This document shows, piece after piece, positions 51,763 through 60,225 of a stretch of DNA of 64,000 bases (within the stretch, counting starts at the first letter, position 1; every line of letters starts with the position of its first letter). Below the pieces are notes generated by a model. The model had not been told where the DNA came from, searched no databases, and saw nothing but the letters and a program-made list of their open reading frames with translations. Made by a program: the position numbers and the translations under genes. Source of the DNA: Ilumatobacter fluminis. Its GTDB lineage: Bacteria; Actinomycetota; Acidimicrobiia; Acidimicrobiales; Ilumatobacteraceae. The stretch lies in contig NZ_SOAU01000001.1 in the NCBI RefSeq assembly GCF_004364865.1, positions 4,186,001 to 4,250,000 of the forward strand, read 5' to 3'.

Positions 51763-52659
51763 TCAGCGGACGGCGGTGGCGACCGAGGAGCGCGGCGGGC
51801 GACCGAGCTGGTCGCTGATCCACCAGGCGGTGTCGACCAGGGCGTCGAGATCGATCCCGGGATCGCGGCCGGAACCCTGCAGCGCGTACACGAGATCTTC
51901 GGTGGCGAGATTGCCCTTGGCCTTCGGGCCGGCGTATGGGCAGCCACCGAGACCACCGACCGAGGCGTCGATCGTGGGCACGCCGGCGTCGAGCGCAGCG
52001 AGCGAGTTCGCGAGACCCATGCCGTAGGTGTCGTGCCCGTGGAACGCCATCGTGTCGACGTCGGCGATCTCGGACAGTTCGTCGAACAGGGCGGCGACCC
52101 GATGGGGCTGCCCGACGCCGATCGTGTCAGCGACACTGACCTCGTGGCAGCCCATCTCGTAGAACGCGGCGACGAGCCGCTTCACGTCTGCGAACGGGAC
52201 GTCACCCTGGTACGGGCAGCCCATCACCGTCGAGACGTAGCCACGGACGCGCAACCCCAGCTGCACCGCTTCGCGGGCGACCTCACCGAACATCTCGACG
52301 CTCTCGTCGACCGTTCGGTTGATGTTGCGCTTGCTGAACTCTTCGCTCGCGGCGCCGAACACGGCGACCTCGCCGACGCCGGCGGCCGCCGCTGCCTCGA
52401 GCCCCTTGCGGTTCGGAGCGAGCGCGATCGAACGGAGTCCGGGCAGGTCGACCACCTGCTCGGCGACGGCCGGGCCGTCGGCGAGTTGAGGAATCCGGTC
52501 GGCACGGACGAACGACGTCACTTCCATCCGTTTGAGGCCGGCGGCGTGCAGGCGTCGGATCAACTCGACCTTTCGGTCGGTGGCGATCGGCGTCGACTCG
52601 CTCTGCAGGCCGTCGCGCGGACCGACCTCGACGATCGTGACGGGCTTGGCAGCGGTCAT
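51763..52659 (-). CDS. Hydroxymethylglutaryl-CoA lyase
   Basis: 298 residues, DRE-TIM metallolyase. VEVGPRDGLQSE opens the barrel with the catalytic Arg and metal-ligand Asp, HGHDTYGMGLAN carries the His metal ligands, and the signature GGLGGCPYAGPKAKGNL includes the catalytic Cys. It cleaves HMG-CoA to acetyl-CoA and acetoacetate, as in leucine or isoprenoid catabolism. It lies 6 bp after the TetR stop and is clearly co-transcribed with it. Confidence 0.95.
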   Translation of the reverse strand: MTAAKPVTIVEVGPRDGLQSESTPIATDRKVELIRRLHAAGLKRMEVTSFVRADRIPQLADGPAVAEQVVDLPGLRSIALAPNRKGLEAAAAAGVGEVAVFGAASEEFSKRNINRTVDESVEMFGEVAREAVQLGLRVRGYVSTVMGCPYQGDVPFADVKRLVAAFYEMGCHEVSVADTIGVGQPHRVAALFDELSEIADVDTMAFHGHDTYGMGLANSLAALDAGVPTIDASVGGLGGCPYAGPKAKGNLATEDLVYALQGSGRDPGIDLDALVDTAWWISDQLGRPPRSSVATAVR

Positions 52660-53337: not shown

Positions 53338-53355
53338 TACGAGCAAGCGCTAGGT
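53338..53355. promoter_or_regulatory. TetR-type operator copy C, upstream of the KstR2-like gene
   Basis: On the minus strand it reads ACCTAGC-GCTT-GCTCGTA. Sixteen of 18 bases of the 18-mer ending in GCTCG are identical to copy A. It also agrees with the published KstR2 pattern AnCAAGnnCTTGnT at all but one defined base (AGCAAGCGCTAGGT, plus strand 53342-53355). It overlaps the stop codon of the acyl-CoA dehydrogenase gene. Confidence 0.65.
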
Positions 53356-54579
53356 CCTGGATGCAACCGGTTCGCGAGGCAGCCCGAGCACCCGCTCGCC
53401 GATGCCGTTCTTCAGCACCTCGTCGGTGCCGCCGCCGATCCGCAACCCGGGCGCACCGAGGACGAACTCGGCCCACACATACGTACCCGGTCGTCCGGCG
53501 TCGGCGACGAGTTCCGGGCCCAACACCAGCGCGGCCAGGGCACCCATCCGAGCGACCACGTCGGTCAAGGCGAGCTTGGTCAACGCGAGCTCCGGTCCGG
53601 GGGTGTCACCCGGCCCGTACCCTTCGCCGAGTCGGCGCTCGAGCCAGCGAGCGACCTGGAGCCTGCCGGCGACGTCGGCCGCCTCGAGACGAGCGACGCG
53701 GTCGCCGCCCGCACGGACGTGGTCGAGGAGGCGATCCATGACGGCGGCCTCCGGGAGGAGTTCGTTGCCGATCGACGAGCGCTCGTTCATGAGTGCGTCG
53801 ATGACGATGTGCCACCCGGCACCCGGCTCGCCGACCACGCCATCGTCCGGCACGAACGTCTCGGTCAGGAACACCTCGCAGAACTCGGCGCCGCCCGTCA
53901 TCTGCTCGATACGCCGGATCTCGACGCCCGGCGCCGACATGTCGACGAAGAACGCGGTGAGGCCCTTGTGTCGGCTGCTGCCCGGCTCGGTGCGGGCGAT
54001 GCAGACGCCGGAGTCGGCGTGCAGTGCGCCCGACGACCACACCTTCTGTCCGTCGAGCTTCCATCCGCCCTCGACCCGTTCGGCGCGTGTCTGGATGTTG
54101 GCGAGATCGGAGCCGGCGTTCGGCTCGGAGAACAGCTGGCAGACCAGCTCGTCGCCACGATGGATCTTCGGCAGGTGTTCGGTGCGGATGCGATCGCTGC
54201 CGAACGCCAGCATCGACGGGCCGAGCACCTGGGTGCCGGTTCGGACGAGGGTGTCGTCCGGGCACGCGTACTCGGCGGTGACCTCGCGCAACGTCGCGAC
54301 ATGGGTGGCGGTCAGACCGGCACCGCCCAACTCGGTCGGCCCGGCGACCCAGCCGTAGCCGGCGTCGAACAGGTCGCGCTGCCACTGCCGCGATGCCTCG
54401 ACGGCTGCGGCCTCGACCGCAGGATCGACGGCGCCGGCGACGATCGGCAACGCCACCGGGGCGTCGGGATCGGTGTCGACCACGTCGGAGCGTCGCGGGT
54501 AGCGGGCTGCGACGAACTCGGTCACGACCGCTCGGAAGCGGTCGAGATCGGTCGGCACGAGCTGTTCGTCGACGGTCAT
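53350..54579 (-). CDS. Acyl-CoA dehydrogenase
   Basis: 409 residues. FAD-binding motifs LFSEPNAGSDLANIQTRAER and GQKVWSSGA are present, with the C-terminal block APGLRIGGGTDEVLKNGIGERVLGL (read in part). It resembles the FadE-type dehydrogenases used for cyclic or branched CoA esters. I chose ATG 54579, which overlaps the thiolase stop (ATGA). There is a 66-bp gap to the TetR gene downstream. Confidence 0.92.
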   Translation of the reverse strand: MTVDEQLVPTDLDRFRAVVTEFVAARYPRRSDVVDTDPDAPVALPIVAGAVDPAVEAAAVEASRQWQRDLFDAGYGWVAGPTELGGAGLTATHVATLREVTAEYACPDDTLVRTGTQVLGPSMLAFGSDRIRTEHLPKIHRGDELVCQLFSEPNAGSDLANIQTRAERVEGGWKLDGQKVWSSGALHADSGVCIARTEPGSSRHKGLTAFFVDMSAPGVEIRRIEQMTGGAEFCEVFLTETFVPDDGVVGEPGAGWHIVIDALMNERSSIGNELLPEAAVMDRLLDHVRAGGDRVARLEAADVAGRLQVARWLERRLGEGYGPGDTPGPELALTKLALTDVVARMGALAALVLGPELVADAGRPGTYVWAEFVLGAPGLRIGGGTDEVLKNGIGERVLGLPREPVASRT

Positions 54580-55754
54580 TCGGGCTCGGACCCCACGATC
54601 GACACGAAGCTCACGCACTCGCCCGGCTGACCACCGAGGTTGTGGGTGAGGCCGACCTTCGGGTCGGCGATCTGGCGTTCACCGGCCTCGCCGCGGAACT
54701 GCAGCCACATCTCGAACAGCATCCGGAGTCCGGATGCGCCGATGGGGTGGCCGAAGCTCTTCAGCCCGCCGTCGGGGTTGATCGGCAGGTCCCCGTCGAG
54801 GTCGTACCGGCCGGCCAGCACGTCCTCGACCGCCTTGCCGCGTTCGGAGAACCCGAGGTCTTCCATCAGGACGAGTTCGGTCGGGGTGAAGCAGTCGTGC
54901 ACCTCTGCCATCGACACCTGGGTCGCCGGATCGTCGATGCCGGCCTGCCGGTACGCCGACTCGCCGGCGGCGACGACCTCGGGGAACGTCGTGTAGTCGT
55001 ACTCGGTGTCGAACGCTCCGGTGCCCGAACCGACCGACAACGCCAGCGCACGGACGTACATCGGGTTGTCGGTGTACTTGTGCACGTCCTCGATGCGACA
55101 GATCACCGCCGCTGCGGCACCGTCGGAGATGCCGGAACAGTCGAACACGTTCAGCTCACCGGCAATCGTCGGGGCGGCGCTGATCGCGCTGGCGGCCACC
55201 GCCCGCTGGAAGTGAGCGCGTGGGTTGATCGCACCGTTGGCATGGTTCTTCGCCGCGATGTGACTGAGCGCCTCGCGCATCGTCTCGAGCGACACGCCGT
55301 ACTTCTCGGCATAGGCGGGGACCAGGAACGAGAACATCGCCGGGGCGGTGAGGTCGACCTCGGAGCCGTCGGTCGGTGACGATGGGATGACCAGGCCGGT
55401 CATGTTCGAGTCCTTCAGCTTCTCGACACCGACCGCCATGACCGCGTCGTAGGCTCCGGACGCGACGGCGTAGCAGGCGTTGCGGACGGCCTCCGACCCC
55501 GTGGCACACATGTTCTCGACCCGGGTCACCGGCTTGTTGGCGATCTTCAACGGCTTGCTCAACACCAGACCCGACTGGCCGGTGACGGCCGTGCCGAGCC
55601 AGAACGCCTCGATGTCGGACATGTCGGCACCGGACGACTCGAGGGCGTCGTCGACCGCGTCGATCAGGAGATCGTCGGCGCTTCGATCCCAGTGGTCGCC
55701 GAACCGGGTGCATCCCATGCCGACGATGGCGACGCCGAGTGGACGTGAGCTCAT
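54576..55754 (-). CDS. Thiolase-like protein (SCP2-thiolase/Ltp type)
   Basis: 392 residues. The nucleophile Cys is in VENMCATGSEA; HDCFTPTEL carries the second active-site His, and GGLKSFGHPIGASGLRM is the C-terminal loop. This pattern belongs to lipid-transfer-type thiolases, which act as thiolases or as retro-aldolases (Ltp2) with a DUF35 partner. The neighbouring protein carries a DUF35-like domain, so a complex is likely. ATG 55754 overlaps that gene's stop (ATGA). Confidence 0.92.
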   Translation of the reverse strand: MSSRPLGVAIVGMGCTRFGDHWDRSADDLLIDAVDDALESSGADMSDIEAFWLGTAVTGQSGLVLSKPLKIANKPVTRVENMCATGSEAVRNACYAVASGAYDAVMAVGVEKLKDSNMTGLVIPSSPTDGSEVDLTAPAMFSFLVPAYAEKYGVSLETMREALSHIAAKNHANGAINPRAHFQRAVAASAISAAPTIAGELNVFDCSGISDGAAAAVICRIEDVHKYTDNPMYVRALALSVGSGTGAFDTEYDYTTFPEVVAAGESAYRQAGIDDPATQVSMAEVHDCFTPTELVLMEDLGFSERGKAVEDVLAGRYDLDGDLPINPDGGLKSFGHPIGASGLRMLFEMWLQFRGEAGERQIADPKVGLTHNLGGQPGECVSFVSIVGSEPE

Positions 55755-57142
55755 GACTGTTCCTCCAGACGAGGGCGGGCTTTCCAGAAGTAGTTCTTGA
55801 CGCCGTTCGGAGCGATGGAGACCAGGCGGTAGACCATCTCGACCCGGTCGCCGACCCGCACGTCGTCGGCGACGACGTCGGTCAGTTGGCAGCGGTAGCG
55901 GCCGCCACCGTCGAAGTCGACGACACCGACGACCACGGGCGGGTTGAGCGACTGGGCGATCCGGTCGATCGTGAACGTGCGCACGGTGGCGGCGACATCT
56001 CGCATCGCGACCTTGCTCATCTGGTCGGTCGCACCACAACGCAGACAGACCCGCTGGGGCGGCAGGTGGCGGGTGCCACAGCTCTCGCACTGCGACCCGG
56101 TGAACGCGAACTTCCAGTCCTCGTTCCGGGCGACGGCCGGCGCAGCCGGCGGCTCGACCGGTGGTCGACGAACCGCCGCCCGCTCGACGAGGCCGCGCCA
56201 CAGCAGGTAGGTCGACGCCGGCACGGCGGTGCCTTCGTCGACAGTCGGGTTGCGATCGAGGTCGGCGATCCGGTCGGTGGCACGCAGCACCATCGCGTCG
56301 GCACCGTCGGCGCCGGTCACCACGAGGACGCGCTCACCCGGCGCGAGCCGATCGAGCGCGGCGATCGTGCGCAACCCCACGTCGGCGGTGCCGGCATAAC
56401 CGATCGCGCCGCGCGTGTCGGTCTCGACGACGGTGCCACCGAGCGCCTTGACGACCTGCTGTTCGACACGGGCCGACGGGCACGACACGACGAGGGCAGC
56501 CAGGTCGGACTCGGTCACGCCGGCCGACTTGAGTGCGTCGGTCGCCGCCTGGACCATCAACGGCACCTGGTGCTCGGCGGTCCAGCGGTCGTCCCAGGTG
56601 GACGATCCGACGTCGCCCTCGGCGCGCCAGCGGTCCATCACCGGCGACGACAGCGACGCCTGCGAGAGCACCTCCACCGCGGGGTCGGGGCCGAACACGA
56701 ACGCAGCAGCGGCGTCGCCGCCGTTGGCCTCGTCGTCGGAACCCGGCTTGCCGTAGCGGACGTCGGCCAGCACCGCGACGGCGGCGCCGGCCTGCGACGA
56801 CGCCGCTCGCAACGTTGCGACGCCCGAACGGATCGAGCCGCCGGTGTCGTACGAGCCGACCGTGTCGGGCAGATCGGTCGCCGCCGTGATCGACGGAGCG
56901 TTGCCGCGGTCGAGCATCGGTGCGTGGCTGGTGGCGAACCAGCACGAGTCGACGGCGTCGAGTGAGTCGAGCCCGGCGACGGCGAGCCGGGCAGCCTCGA
57001 CGCCCATCGTCAGGGCGTCCTCGTCGGGGCCGGCAACCGAGCGCTTGCCTCCGGGCGCGGACACGCCGAACATCCCGGCGAGCTCGCGTCGATCGAGTCG
57101 ACCACGCGGCACGTAGGTGCCCCAGGCGACGATTCCGTTCAT
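55751..57142 (-). CDS. HMG-CoA-synthase-like domain fused to DUF35 Zn-ribbon/OB-fold
   Basis: 463 residues. Residues 1-320 follow archaeal-type HMG-CoA synthase: IVAWGTYVPRGRLDR, the condensing-core region near residue 95, ANGGDAAAAFVFG, and RVLVVTGADG. The position of the catalytic Cys reads SYDTGGSIRSG, without Cys. Residues about 345-463 are a DUF35 module: rubredoxin-like knuckles CESCG and CLRCG, then an OB fold (VVVGVVDFDGGGRYRCQLTD). Separate archaeal DUF35 proteins bridge thiolase and HMG-CoA synthase; here the two are one chain. AGGAGG precedes ATG 57142. Confidence 0.85.
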   Translation of the reverse strand: MNGIVAWGTYVPRGRLDRRELAGMFGVSAPGGKRSVAGPDEDALTMGVEAARLAVAGLDSLDAVDSCWFATSHAPMLDRGNAPSITAATDLPDTVGSYDTGGSIRSGVATLRAASSQAGAAVAVLADVRYGKPGSDDEANGGDAAAAFVFGPDPAVEVLSQASLSSPVMDRWRAEGDVGSSTWDDRWTAEHQVPLMVQAATDALKSAGVTESDLAALVVSCPSARVEQQVVKALGGTVVETDTRGAIGYAGTADVGLRTIAALDRLAPGERVLVVTGADGADAMVLRATDRIADLDRNPTVDEGTAVPASTYLLWRGLVERAAVRRPPVEPPAAPAVARNEDWKFAFTGSQCESCGTRHLPPQRVCLRCGATDQMSKVAMRDVAATVRTFTIDRIAQSLNPPVVVGVVDFDGGGRYRCQLTDVVADDVRVGDRVEMVYRLVSIAPNGVKNYFWKARPRLEEQS

Positions 57143-57170: not shown

Positions 57171-58064
57171 TCAGGCGCCGACGCCGACGATCTCGGCGTA
57201 GCGGCGGGCCTTGGCCTCGTACCCGTCGACCGAGAAGCGCGGCGAGACGACGACCTCGTGGAGGCCGAGCGGTTCGCACTGTTCGATGTAGCGGGCGTCG
57301 TCTTCCCAGTCGCGTTCCTCGGTGCCCTTGGCACGCCGGCCGACGCGGAGTTCGATCTCGTCGATCGATCGTCCCGCGGCGGTGAGTGCCGTGTCGAGCT
57401 GATCGATGAAGCGACCGATCTCGTCGACCTCGAGGTTGTACCCGGCCCACCCCTGGCCGTGTTCGACGATCCGTCGGACCGTCGCAGCCGAGTTGCCACC
57501 GACGACGATCGGCGGGTGGGGTCGTTGCACCGGCTTCGGGAACGCGAGGAGTGGCGCGAACTCGACGAACTCGCCGTCGAACCCGGTCACCTCTTCGTCA
57601 CTCCACAACACCTTCATGGCGGCGAGGTACTCGTCGGTGCGGGCACCACGGCGAGCGAACGGAACGCCGAGTGCGGTGTACTCCTCCTCCGACCAGCCGA
57701 CGCCGATGCCGAAGTCGAAGCGACCGCCCGACAGCACGTCGACGGCGGCGACATGACGGGCGAGCATGATCGGGTTCCGCTGGGCGACGACGCACACGTA
57801 CGTGCCGAGGCGGATCGTCGACGTCACCGCGGCGATCGCGGCGAGGCCGACGAACGGGTCGTACACACCACGGAGCGCACGGACCTCGTTGCCGCCGAGG
57901 GTGCCGTACGGGTACGACGAGTCGTAGCTCGGGAAGAACACCACGTGCTCCGGATACCAGATCGCGTGAAAGCCGAGCTCTTCGAGCAGCACGGCGGTCT
58001 CGCGGACGAACGCTCCGTCGCGCCCGTCCTCCCCGGTGAACAGTTCGCTGATTCCGATCCTCAT
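57171..58064 (-). CDS. LLM class F420-dependent oxidoreductase
   Basis: 297 residues, luciferase-like TIM barrel. ELGFHAIWYPEHVVFF, RLGTYVCVVAQRNPIMLARH (read in part) and the long loop GGRFDFGIGVGWSEEEYTALGV are typical of F420-dependent TIGR03619-type enzymes. It would transfer hydride between F420 and an alcohol, ketone or enoyl substrate. ATG 58064 overlaps the amidohydrolase stop (ATGA). The next gene starts 28 bp downstream. Confidence 0.92.
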   Translation of the reverse strand: MRIGISELFTGEDGRDGAFVRETAVLLEELGFHAIWYPEHVVFFPSYDSSYPYGTLGGNEVRALRGVYDPFVGLAAIAAVTSTIRLGTYVCVVAQRNPIMLARHVAAVDVLSGGRFDFGIGVGWSEEEYTALGVPFARRGARTDEYLAAMKVLWSDEEVTGFDGEFVEFAPLLAFPKPVQRPHPPIVVGGNSAATVRRIVEHGQGWAGYNLEVDEIGRFIDQLDTALTAAGRSIDEIELRVGRRAKGTEERDWEDDARYIEQCEPLGLHEVVVSPRFSVDGYEAKARRYAEIVGVGA

Positions 58065-59053
58065 GTGGCAACCCCCCGTGTGCCGATCGTGGCTCGAACC
58101 TCGTCGAGCCGGTACAGGTCGACGGCGGCGTGCGCCATCGCCAGTTCGAGTTCTTCCTGTGCGAGCACCGCCGGCGATCCCTCGTACGGCTCGGCCAAGG
58201 CGGTGAACTGATCGATCCAGCGCTCGAGCTGGGCGCCGTCGGCGTCGTCACCCGGTCCGCGGATGATGTCGGAGCCGAACAGGAGACGATGCGCCCCGAC
58301 GCGCTGCTTCGCGAGCAGGATCCGGCGACGGAACTCGCCGTAGTCGAAGTCGGCGCTGCGCTGCCAGAGCGACAGGTCGAGGTAGCAGCGCTGCCACCCG
58401 AACGCCATGTCGACCGCTTCCATCCACCAGGCCTCGAACCCGGCGTGCCCGAACACCCAGGCGATCGTCGGGTAACGCTGCATGACGGGGGCGATGGCTG
58501 CAGGTCGGGAGTTCGGGGTCACGAGCGGGTCGCCGCCGAGCGGCGCCGTGTGGATCACGATGGGGCGGTCGTGTTCGGCGGCGAACCGGAACACCCAGTC
58601 GTACTGCGGGTCGTCGATCAACCAGCCGGCGGCCGGGTAGAGCTTGAAGCCGACGCACGCGGGCCGTTCGAGCGAACGCTCGGCGATCTCGCGGGCGTTC
58701 GGCTGCCGCGGGTCGAGTCCGGCACAGAAGGCGAGTCGGCCATCGGTCGTCTCGGCGAGGCGATCGTGGTGATCGTGGAGCCCTTCGATGGTCAGTTCGT
58801 CCGGTCCGGCGTTGCCGACCACGGTCCAGTCGACGACGGGGATCAGACCGGCGTCGACACCGAGGCGGTCGAACGCCGCGATCGTGAGCGCCCCGGTCGG
58901 GTCGCTCTGGCGCTGCATCACGCGCGCTTCCATGGCGGCGGGATCGCGGAGCTCGGTCCGGCGACCGGACGCCTGACGCGCCCAGGCCATGCGGACCTCG
59001 CGCGGGATCCACTCGCGGTCGAGGACGTGCAGGTGTGCGTCGACGATGCGCAT
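58061..59053 (-). CDS. Amidohydrolase family 2 protein
   Basis: 330 residues. An intact N-terminal HxH (IVDAHLHVLDRE), the metal Lys/His region FKLYPAAGW and VIHTAPLGGDP, a His in VFGHAGFEAWW and the late Asp in LLFGSDIIRGPG are consistent with a mononuclear metal hydrolase or decarboxylase. It differs from the DDH variant at 50433-51677. Start and stop both overlap neighbours. Confidence 0.88.
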   Translation of the reverse strand: MRIVDAHLHVLDREWIPREVRMAWARQASGRRTELRDPAAMEARVMQRQSDPTGALTIAAFDRLGVDAGLIPVVDWTVVGNAGPDELTIEGLHDHHDRLAETTDGRLAFCAGLDPRQPNAREIAERSLERPACVGFKLYPAAGWLIDDPQYDWVFRFAAEHDRPIVIHTAPLGGDPLVTPNSRPAAIAPVMQRYPTIAWVFGHAGFEAWWMEAVDMAFGWQRCYLDLSLWQRSADFDYGEFRRRILLAKQRVGAHRLLFGSDIIRGPGDDADGAQLERWIDQFTALAEPYEGSPAVLAQEELELAMAHAAVDLYRLDEVRATIGTRGVAT

Positions 59054-60225
59054 CAGGAGACGCGCTCCAGCACATGAGCCGTCGACACGGCGGTGTGCCA
59101 GTCGATCACTCCGCCACCGACCTGTGCCAGCGCGATGCGGGCGTCGGGGGTCTGGCGTTCGCCGGCCGTACCGAGCAGTTGCGACCGCAGCTCGTGCACC
59201 TGTGCGATACCACTCGCCGCGAGCGCATGGCCGCGGGCGATCAGCCCGCCCGACGGGTTGATCGGCAGCGGGCCGCCGAGTGCGGTGTGTCGCTCGATCG
59301 CCCACCGCTCCTCGTCGCCGGGAGCGCACAGACCGGTCTCGGTCCAGGCCATGGCTTCGTAGGCGACGCTCGCGTCGTGGACCTCGGCGACGTCGATGTC
59401 GTCGGGACCGATACCGGCGATCTCGTACGCACGCGATGTGGCGGCGTGGGCGGCCGACGGCCCGTCGACACCCTTGGGTGGGCGACTCGCCAGCACCGAC
59501 GCGCCGATCTTCACCCGCGGTCCGGAGCCGGGCTTGCTGCTGACCACGGCAGCCGCCGCACCGTCGCTCACCGGAGAACTCATCAGCGAGGTGATCGGAT
59601 CGACCACGGTACGGGCGCCGAGCACACCATCGGCATCGACGTCGATGTGGCGGTGTGCCAGGGGGTTGAGACGCCCGTACTCGTAGGCCTTCGCGGCGAT
59701 CTCGGCGAGCCCGCGCCGGGTCATGCCGGCGTTGTCGAACAACGCCTGAGCCAGACGCGCCTGACGATCGACCAGCGGTGTTCGATCGGTGCCGGCTCCT
59801 TCACCGACCTCGAACATGTCCTCCACGTCGGTGCCGGCCTTGTACGCCGCGAAGGTGCGGGCCCGGTCTTCGTGGTTGGCCTTCTCGACGCCGACCGCCA
59901 ACACGGTGTCGTACATGCCCGAGGCGACCGCCATGTGGGCGAGGTGGAGGGCGTTGCCGCCCGACGCGCACGCGTTCTCGACGTTGTGGATCGGGATGGT
60001 TCCGAACCCGAGCGGGTACAGCACGACCTCGCCGCGGATGCATTCCTGTCCCGTGATCAAGCCGGCGAGGGAGTTCGCGAAGTAGACCGCTTGCACGTCG
60101 CCCGGCTCGAGTCCGGCGTCGGCCAACGCCTGCTCGACGGCTTCGGCACCGAGGTCTTTCATCGATCGGTCGAGGTGCTTGCCGAACCGCGTCATGGCGG
60201 TGGCGGTGACGAAGGCGTCGGTCAT
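59053..60225 (-). CDS. Thiolase-like protein, second copy
   Basis: 390 residues. The nucleophile Cys is in VENACASGGNALH; the HD motif reads VAEVHDASVAYEA, and the C-terminal loop is GGLIARGHALAASGIAQVHE. It is only distantly similar to the thiolase at 54576-55754, particularly around HDAS versus HDCF, so it probably has a different substrate. No DUF35 partner is adjacent. It is coupled on both sides (ATGA with the SDR gene, TGATG with the amidohydrolase gene). Confidence 0.9.
   Translation of the reverse strand: MTDAFVTATAMTRFGKHLDRSMKDLGAEAVEQALADAGLEPGDVQAVYFANSLAGLITGQECIRGEVVLYPLGFGTIPIHNVENACASGGNALHLAHMAVASGMYDTVLAVGVEKANHEDRARTFAAYKAGTDVEDMFEVGEGAGTDRTPLVDRQARLAQALFDNAGMTRRGLAEIAAKAYEYGRLNPLAHRHIDVDADGVLGARTVVDPITSLMSSPVSDGAAAAVVSSKPGSGPRVKIGASVLASRPPKGVDGPSAAHAATSRAYEIAGIGPDDIDVAEVHDASVAYEAMAWTETGLCAPGDEERWAIERHTALGGPLPINPSGGLIARGHALAASGIAQVHELRSQLLGTAGERQTPDARIALAQVGGGVIDWHTAVSTAHVLERVS

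Follow-up and report, generated by a model that had tools for sequence, protein, structure and literature searches.

A noncatalytic HMG-CoA-synthase-like/DUF35 fusion and its SCP2-type thiolase partner in Ilumatobacter fluminis, a candidate degradative thiolase complex

Our analysis suggests that two adjoining genes of Ilumatobacter fluminis encode a thiolase complex in which a relative of 3-hydroxy-3-methylglutaryl coenzyme A (HMG-CoA) synthase has lost its catalytic residues and has been kept as a structural partner. Both genes are on the minus strand of the window, i.e., the whole stretch of 64,000 nucleotides that was analyzed (contig NZ_SOAU01000001.1, positions 4,186,001 to 4,250,000). 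The first gene (55751 to 57142; ATG at 57142, stop codon TGA at 55753 to 55751) encodes a 463-amino-acid fusion of an HMG-CoA-synthase-like domain and a DUF35 domain, and the second (54576 to 55754; ATG at 55754, stop codon at 54578 to 54576) encodes an SCP2-type thiolase of 392 amino acids. The stop codon of the fusion gene and the start codon of the thiolase gene share the bases of an ATGA overlap (55751 to 55754, minus strand), and the two genes are likely translationally coupled by it. A previous interpretation of this DNA, made from the letters alone (the sequence-only reading), had described such a fusion beside a coupled thiolase, and strand, frames, coordinates, and overlap all hold. 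We favor, with a probability of about 0.62, the reading that the two gene products form a single, obligate complex with the activity of a degradative SCP2-type thiolase, in which the dead synthase-DUF35 fusion would act as scaffold and CoA-site partner.

The fusion protein and its lost catalytic residues

The fusion protein consists of the HMG-CoA-synthase-like domain (residues ~1 to 320), a short proline/arginine-rich linker, and a DUF35 domain made up of a zinc ribbon (347 to 373) and an oligonucleotide/oligosaccharide-binding (OB) fold (384 to 439). Residues ~1 to 301 match the archaeal HMG-CoA synthase model NF003274 (E = 8.5e-32) with 110.5 bits against a cutoff of 244, and therefore the fusion is related to archaeal HMG-CoA synthase but is not a member of that family. 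Residues 347 to 439 match zf-ChsH2 and OB_ChsH2_C, both above their cutoffs (PF12172 and PF01796), in keeping with a DUF35/ChsH2-type domain that has a Cys4 zinc ribbon and an OB fold; the zinc-ribbon cysteines are Cys352, Cys355, Cys366, and Cys369.

The closest known system is the archaeal thiolase/DUF35/HMG-CoA synthase complex of Methanothermococcus (6ESQ and 6ET9), which has the same three modules and gave the best profile and fold matches. With the family profile, the synthase-like part matches 6ESQ chain I up to chain residue 347 (E = 1.7e-41), and the match of the DUF35 part, to chain E, begins at chain residue 5 (E = 2.5e-13). The matched profile positions of the fusion are 3 to 328 (chain I) and 346 to 466 (chain E), with a linker of ~17 positions, and hence the fusion corresponds to two archaeal chains joined nearly end to end. 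The predicted structure of the fusion (predicted local distance difference test [pLDDT] of 89.2, predicted template modeling score [pTM] of 0.91) has 6ESQ_I as its best structural match (Z = 42.9, 1.8 Å over 320 residues), which places it in the HMG-CoA-synthase fold of the thiolase superfamily, followed by the PhlA chains and then by 9VBO_A (MucABC acyltransferase complex); a fold match says nothing on function. The three homologous modules are thus encoded together in the window, but not as three separate subunits, and, unlike the archaeal enzyme, the synthase part lacks the catalytic Cys, Glu, and His. The proposal of the sequence-only reading that the pair recreates the archaeal complex in two chains is borne out by the solved structures, since each module, the thiolase included, has the corresponding 6ESQ chain as its best solved match.

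In the alignment with the Methanothermococcus HMG-CoA synthase, Cys114 falls on Ile104 of the fusion (codon 104 counted from the start at 57142; 56831 to 56833, minus strand), Glu82 falls on Ser72, and a histidine that we take to be the catalytic one (residue 238 in the archaeal fragment that was aligned) falls on Ser220. Cys114 and Glu82 are key residues of the archaeal HMG-CoA synthase, and both are also missing in PhlA (PMC6392133). The missing cysteine, pointed out before for the window protein, is missing throughout the relatives: in all 121 homologues (96 different sequences found at 98 loci, 6 plasmid-borne ones, and 19 taken from genomes that are more divergent), the three catalytic positions are without their Cys, Glu, and His, with the reservation that one row is gapped at the Cys position and that two very divergent sequences on long branches (L157 and L158) are aligned with uncertainty. 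In the column equivalent to Cys114, the residue is V, A, L, P, I, S, T, Q, or G, or the row is gapped. A catalytic Cys elsewhere in the fusion protein was looked for as well and rejected, since the synthase-like part has no conserved Cys column, the best one having Cys in 17 of the 96 homologues. Furthermore, an active fused ancestor was sought in deeper branches, among lower-scoring fusions of other families, and none had the Cys (the alignment of L157 and L158 being unsure). Judging from these alignments, Cys loss and fusion define a large family and are not a local oddity.

Despite the loss of the Cys, the pocket of the synthase-like domain is strongly conserved, with a near-invariant stretch at positions ~74 to 91 plus Asp99, Arg105, and Ser106. 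This would be expected if the domain had gained a new catalytic activity and the pair carried out two steps with channeling. We consider such a gain improbable, because no conserved nucleophile is found in the Cys column across the 121 rows and because packing of the dimer and of the interface would explain the conservation equally well.

The zinc site of the fused DUF35 domain (window positions 56036 to 56089, minus strand) follows an all-or-none pattern: all four cysteines are present in 76 of the 121 homologues and all four are absent in the other 45, with no intermediates, and three changes of state are required on the tree. Therefore, zinc seems to be dispensable in part of the fusion family, and the zinc requirement becomes testable.

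The partner thiolase

A scan of GTDB genomes matched at least 597 stretches, at least 529 of them encoding relatives of the pair, and the 80 that were fetched come from Actinomycetota, Rokubacteria, Methylomirabilota, Chloroflexi, and one metagenome-assembled genome labelled Deltaproteobacteria. Among plasmids, 26 of 72,556 records match at an E value of 1e-20, from Rhodococcus, Mycobacterium avium, Streptomyces, and several Proteobacteria. A related (PRK06157-type) thiolase gene is found downstream on the same strand in 97 of 98 fusion loci, and at 87 of these 98 the distance is at most 150 bp; at the sole exception (L074), ~2 kb of contig lies downstream, with no thiolase there. Among 296 genomes of the host phylum, drawn separately, the fusion is present in 43, a thiolase above the cutoff in 44, and both in 43. 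Here, 51 of 53 full-length fusions are followed directly by an above-cutoff thiolase, the other two being one with a below-cutoff thiolase and one that ends 149 bases from the contig end. Conversely, the fusion is found upstream of 52 of the 54 above-cutoff thiolases; of the remaining two, the one in G166 is preceded by a divergent fusion-like protein (E = 2.4e-28), and for the other (G213:C6) none was found. The recurrence of the pair across Actinomycetota, Rokubacteria, Methylomirabilota, Chloroflexi, and Proteobacteria led us to reject chance or an artifact as its origin. Three paralogous fusion-thiolase pairs (L045, L046, and L047) are present in a genome (G037) from the order to which the window belongs.

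The window thiolase belongs to PRK06157/NF004810 (above the cutoff) and has the active-site motifs of SCP2-type thiolases, namely, Cys83, His286-Asp287-Cys288-Phe289 (HDCF), and His336 of GHP. All 41 of the aligned partner thiolases have Cys83, HDCF, and His336 without exception. HDCF was found in 91 of the 97 partners and the remaining 6 gave no match to the search pattern; at least six of the partner thiolases are truncated (<290 amino acids). By these motifs, the partner is of the thiolase type, with a complete predicted active site.

SCP-2 thiolases have HDCF, whereas the steroid aldolases Ltp2 and Sal have YDHF and YDCY, and in Sal the nucleophilic Cys is replaced by Gly (PMC12329534). 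The sequence-only reading had considered the synthase-like part to be either a scaffold or the site of a new reaction, for example, help to a steroid-type retro-aldolase. The scaffold fits with the loss of the nucleophile in all homologues examined, but the retro-aldolase does not fit with a partner that has kept Cys83, HDCF, and GHP. It is true that the Ltp2-ChsH2 (6OK1) and Sal-Shy aldolases combine DUF35 with a thiolase fold, as the window pair does, and that a homologous pair is found in the steroid cluster of Novosphingobium sp. ES2-1 (see below). However, the thiolase-type motifs, with HDCF and a Cys nucleophile where the aldolases have a Tyr-Asp motif, disfavor a retro-aldolase of the Ltp2/Sal kind, and we regard it as most improbable.

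By profile, the closest solved relative of the thiolase is the archaeal acetoacetyl-CoA thiolase (6ESQ chain A; E = 9.7e-73); other solved relatives are SCP2 thiolases (3.8e-49), benzoylsuccinyl-CoA thiolase (6e-43), PhlC (2e-34), and the Ltp2 entry 6OK1 (5e-29). Benzoylsuccinyl-CoA thiolase (BbsAB; 7PXP), whose substrate is a bulky 3-oxoacyl-CoA, also combines DUF35 with an SCP2-type thiolase but is without an HMG-CoA-synthase-like domain, and its thiolase is more distant. The same dead-synthase design is found in PhlABC (5M3K and 5MG5), in which PhlA is HMG-CoA-synthase-like without the catalytic Cys, the thiolase-fold subunit is live, and DUF35 forms the bridge (PMC6392133). The window pair could, therefore, be imagined as a C-acyltransferase of the PhlABC/MucABC kind that passes acyl groups from one carbon acceptor to another, with no net thiolysis, the fusion being PhlA and PhlB in one chain. 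Consistent with this, PhlA likewise lacks Cys and Glu, and the PhlA chains and 9VBO_A rank next after 6ESQ_I in the fold matches. However, PhlABC and MucABC (9VBO) have three separate chains and serve biosynthetic acyl transfer, and the window thiolase is nearer to the archaeal acetoacetyl-CoA thiolase than to PhlC. It also has HDCF, at whose His the active-site Tyr298 of PhlC is probably located, to judge from the residue numbers, and the neighbors of the pair are beta-oxidation genes and not polyketide genes. A C-acyltransferase is, therefore, unlikely. Fusions of DUF35 to members of the thiolase superfamily, as well as the inactive PhlA, were noted in the 2010 DUF35 structure paper (PMC2954200), and in the open-licence literature searched, we recognized no characterization of a fused, consistently inactive family together with its thiolase partner.

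Gene neighborhoods and the link to estradiol degradation

The operon of the window has two genes each for luciferase-like monooxygenase (LLM) oxidoreductases, amidohydrolases, and acyl-CoA dehydrogenases, together with genes for a short-chain dehydrogenase/reductase (SDR), a hydrolase, an HMG-CoA lyase, and, in addition to the thiolase of the pair, another SCP2-type thiolase. One acyl-CoA dehydrogenase gene (53353 to 54579, minus strand; ATG at 54579) has an ATGA overlap with the thiolase gene, and the upstream neighbor of the fusion gene encodes an F420-type LLM oxidoreductase (57171 to 58064, minus strand; TIGR03619, above the cutoff). The second thiolase (59053 to 60225, minus strand), which has no adjoining fusion partner, keeps the Cys motif but has HDAS for HDCF and GHA for GHP, and its chemistry may differ. 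Elsewhere in the same genome (G000:C1, ~590725 to 592025 and ~1099887 to 1101441), there are two other thiolase-DUF35 pairs, and the DUF35 open frame found in them is without an HMG-CoA-synthase-like part.

The HMG-CoA lyase family gene (51763 to 52659, minus strand) reaches 362.7 bits with NF004283 (cutoff, 246) and is 1.9 kb away from the thiolase gene, which agrees with the lyase at about 2 kb proposed from the sequence. The nearest relative of the pair (L043; same genus, 70% identical) keeps most of the gene order of the window, including the lyase. Genes of the lyase cluster (cluster 43) are also found near the pair in Mycobacterium and Nocardia (L065, L099, and L103), and in Rhodococcus sp. 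DK180, an annotated hydroxymethylglutaryl-CoA lyase (L165, 2132 to 3124) is near the pair in an HMG-CoA-lyase/MaoC/CaiB cluster. Since the lyase recurs near the pair in separate lineages, this neighborhood may be functional. The lyases recur although no true HMG-CoA synthase was found elsewhere in the genome of the window with NF003274 (none above the cutoff) or PF01154 (no match).

On plasmids of Rhodococcus and M. avium, the pair is located in clusters with aromatic-ring-hydroxylating (Rieske) dioxygenases. A NifU-like gene is present in 29 of the 98 loci, many of them from Acidimicrobiia, and lies directly upstream of the pair in 26; in some of these Acidimicrobiia loci (e.g., L064 and L112), DXS is encoded downstream on the opposite strand. 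In Rokubacteria, the pair is surrounded by unrelated genes. These counts are lower bounds because the flanks differ in length; each cluster name stands for one representative, and the crude gene caller used for the clustering overlooked two genes in the window, those for HMG-CoA lyase and TetR.

In Novosphingobium sp. ES2-1, an estradiol degrader according to a review (PMC12507874), plasmid p3 has a homologous pair between SDR/acyl-CoA dehydrogenase genes and enoyl-CoA hydratase genes; genes for a lipid-transfer protein, a protein with an OB fold, and a cytochrome P450 come next, and VOC and indolepyruvate-ferredoxin-oxidoreductase genes adjoin. The genes are arranged as in the edc operon OpA of N. 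(Caenibius) tardaugens, in which EGO55_13550 (thiolase) adjoins EGO55_13555 ("HMG-CoA synthase"). According to the account given of the operon, expression of the 17 edc genes rises on estradiol, and the HMG-CoA synthase was left unassigned, as its reaction made no apparent sense; a DUF35 fusion is not part of that account of EGO55_13555 (PMC7793797). By this shared gene order, EGO55_13555 is probably a fusion of the ES2-1 type, and the pair would then explain the unplaced "HMG-CoA synthase" of the edc operon. In ES2-1, aldolase-like and thiolase-like proteins are separate, as judged from their motifs: the lipid-transfer protein has YDAF, no match to the Cys motif, and its own adjoining OB-fold gene, which fits the role of a retro-aldolase, whereas the thiolase of the pair has the Cys motif, HDCF, and GHP. 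The ES2-1 fusion (L162, 17992 to 19395) is distant from the window fusion (30% identity), and therefore a shared substrate does not follow.

Proposed function of the pair

In our model, DUF35 would link the thiolase to the dead synthase, like its counterparts in the archaeal acetoacetyl-CoA thiolase/HMG-CoA synthase and PhlABC complexes, and the dead synthase would form a wall or lid of a shared CoA/acyl tunnel and hold the complex together without doing chemistry, while the thiolase would cleave a 3-oxoacyl-CoA with CoA. In favor of the model are the dead synthase site, the intact motifs of the thiolase, the constant pairing of the two genes, the matches to 6ESQ, the catabolic clusters around the pair in ES2-1, Rhodococcus, and M. 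avium, and a host genome with no true HMG-CoA synthase above the cutoff. The synthesis of acetoacetyl-CoA is endergonic, and the archaeal complex is pulled by the exergonic formation of HMG-CoA, which is impossible without the Cys of the synthase. With HMG-CoA synthesis lost, the exergonic pull is gone, and therefore the complex should run in the direction of cleavage. The same consideration bears on a biosynthetic acetoacetyl-CoA thiolase that supplies C4 units in the archaeal direction. Such a role would be in line with the archaeal acetoacetyl-CoA thiolase as the closest solved thiolase and with the pair of marine Acidimicrobiia, which is chromosomal and amid housekeeping genes, but we deem it unlikely, because an endergonic synthesis would have to proceed without the pull and because the window pair overlaps an acyl-CoA dehydrogenase gene. 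For the degradative thiolase complex favored here, the likely substrates would be 3-oxoacyl-CoAs that are bulky, branched, or derived from rings and that come from the catabolic operons around the pair.

Several points weigh against a degradative complex. Co-occurrence and gene coupling are no proof of physical contact, and the fusion is found in only 2 of 10 genomes of the window's genus, i.e., its occurrence is patchy. Homologues in Rokubacteria and marine Acidimicrobiia are located amid housekeeping or unrelated genes (NifU and DXS) and not amid catabolic ones, and therefore substrates of the ring or steroid type cannot apply to the whole family. Furthermore, several clusters also encode a canonical thiolase that possibly does the ordinary thiolysis, leaving another reaction to the pair. 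Finally, PhlABC, with its dead synthase, is a Friedel-Crafts acyltransferase and not a degradative thiolase (PMC6392133).

For the family as a whole (at least 529 loci), we tentatively propose, at somewhat less than even odds, that it consists of two-chain thiolases in which the dead synthase fused to DUF35 is the obligate noncatalytic half of a CoA tunnel and that different branches of the family were recruited for the cleavage of bulky 3-oxoacyl-CoAs, including ring-derived intermediates of estradiol, which would explain the edc "HMG-CoA synthase." An orphan gene of estradiol degradation would thereby receive a concrete candidate function. Genes annotated as "hydroxymethylglutaryl-CoA synthase" or "OB-fold domain-containing protein" become a testable machine with a defined partner, and a mevalonate step should not be inferred from such fusion genes. 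The family would also offer a clean example of an enzyme that was retained as a fused scaffold after its catalysis was lost.

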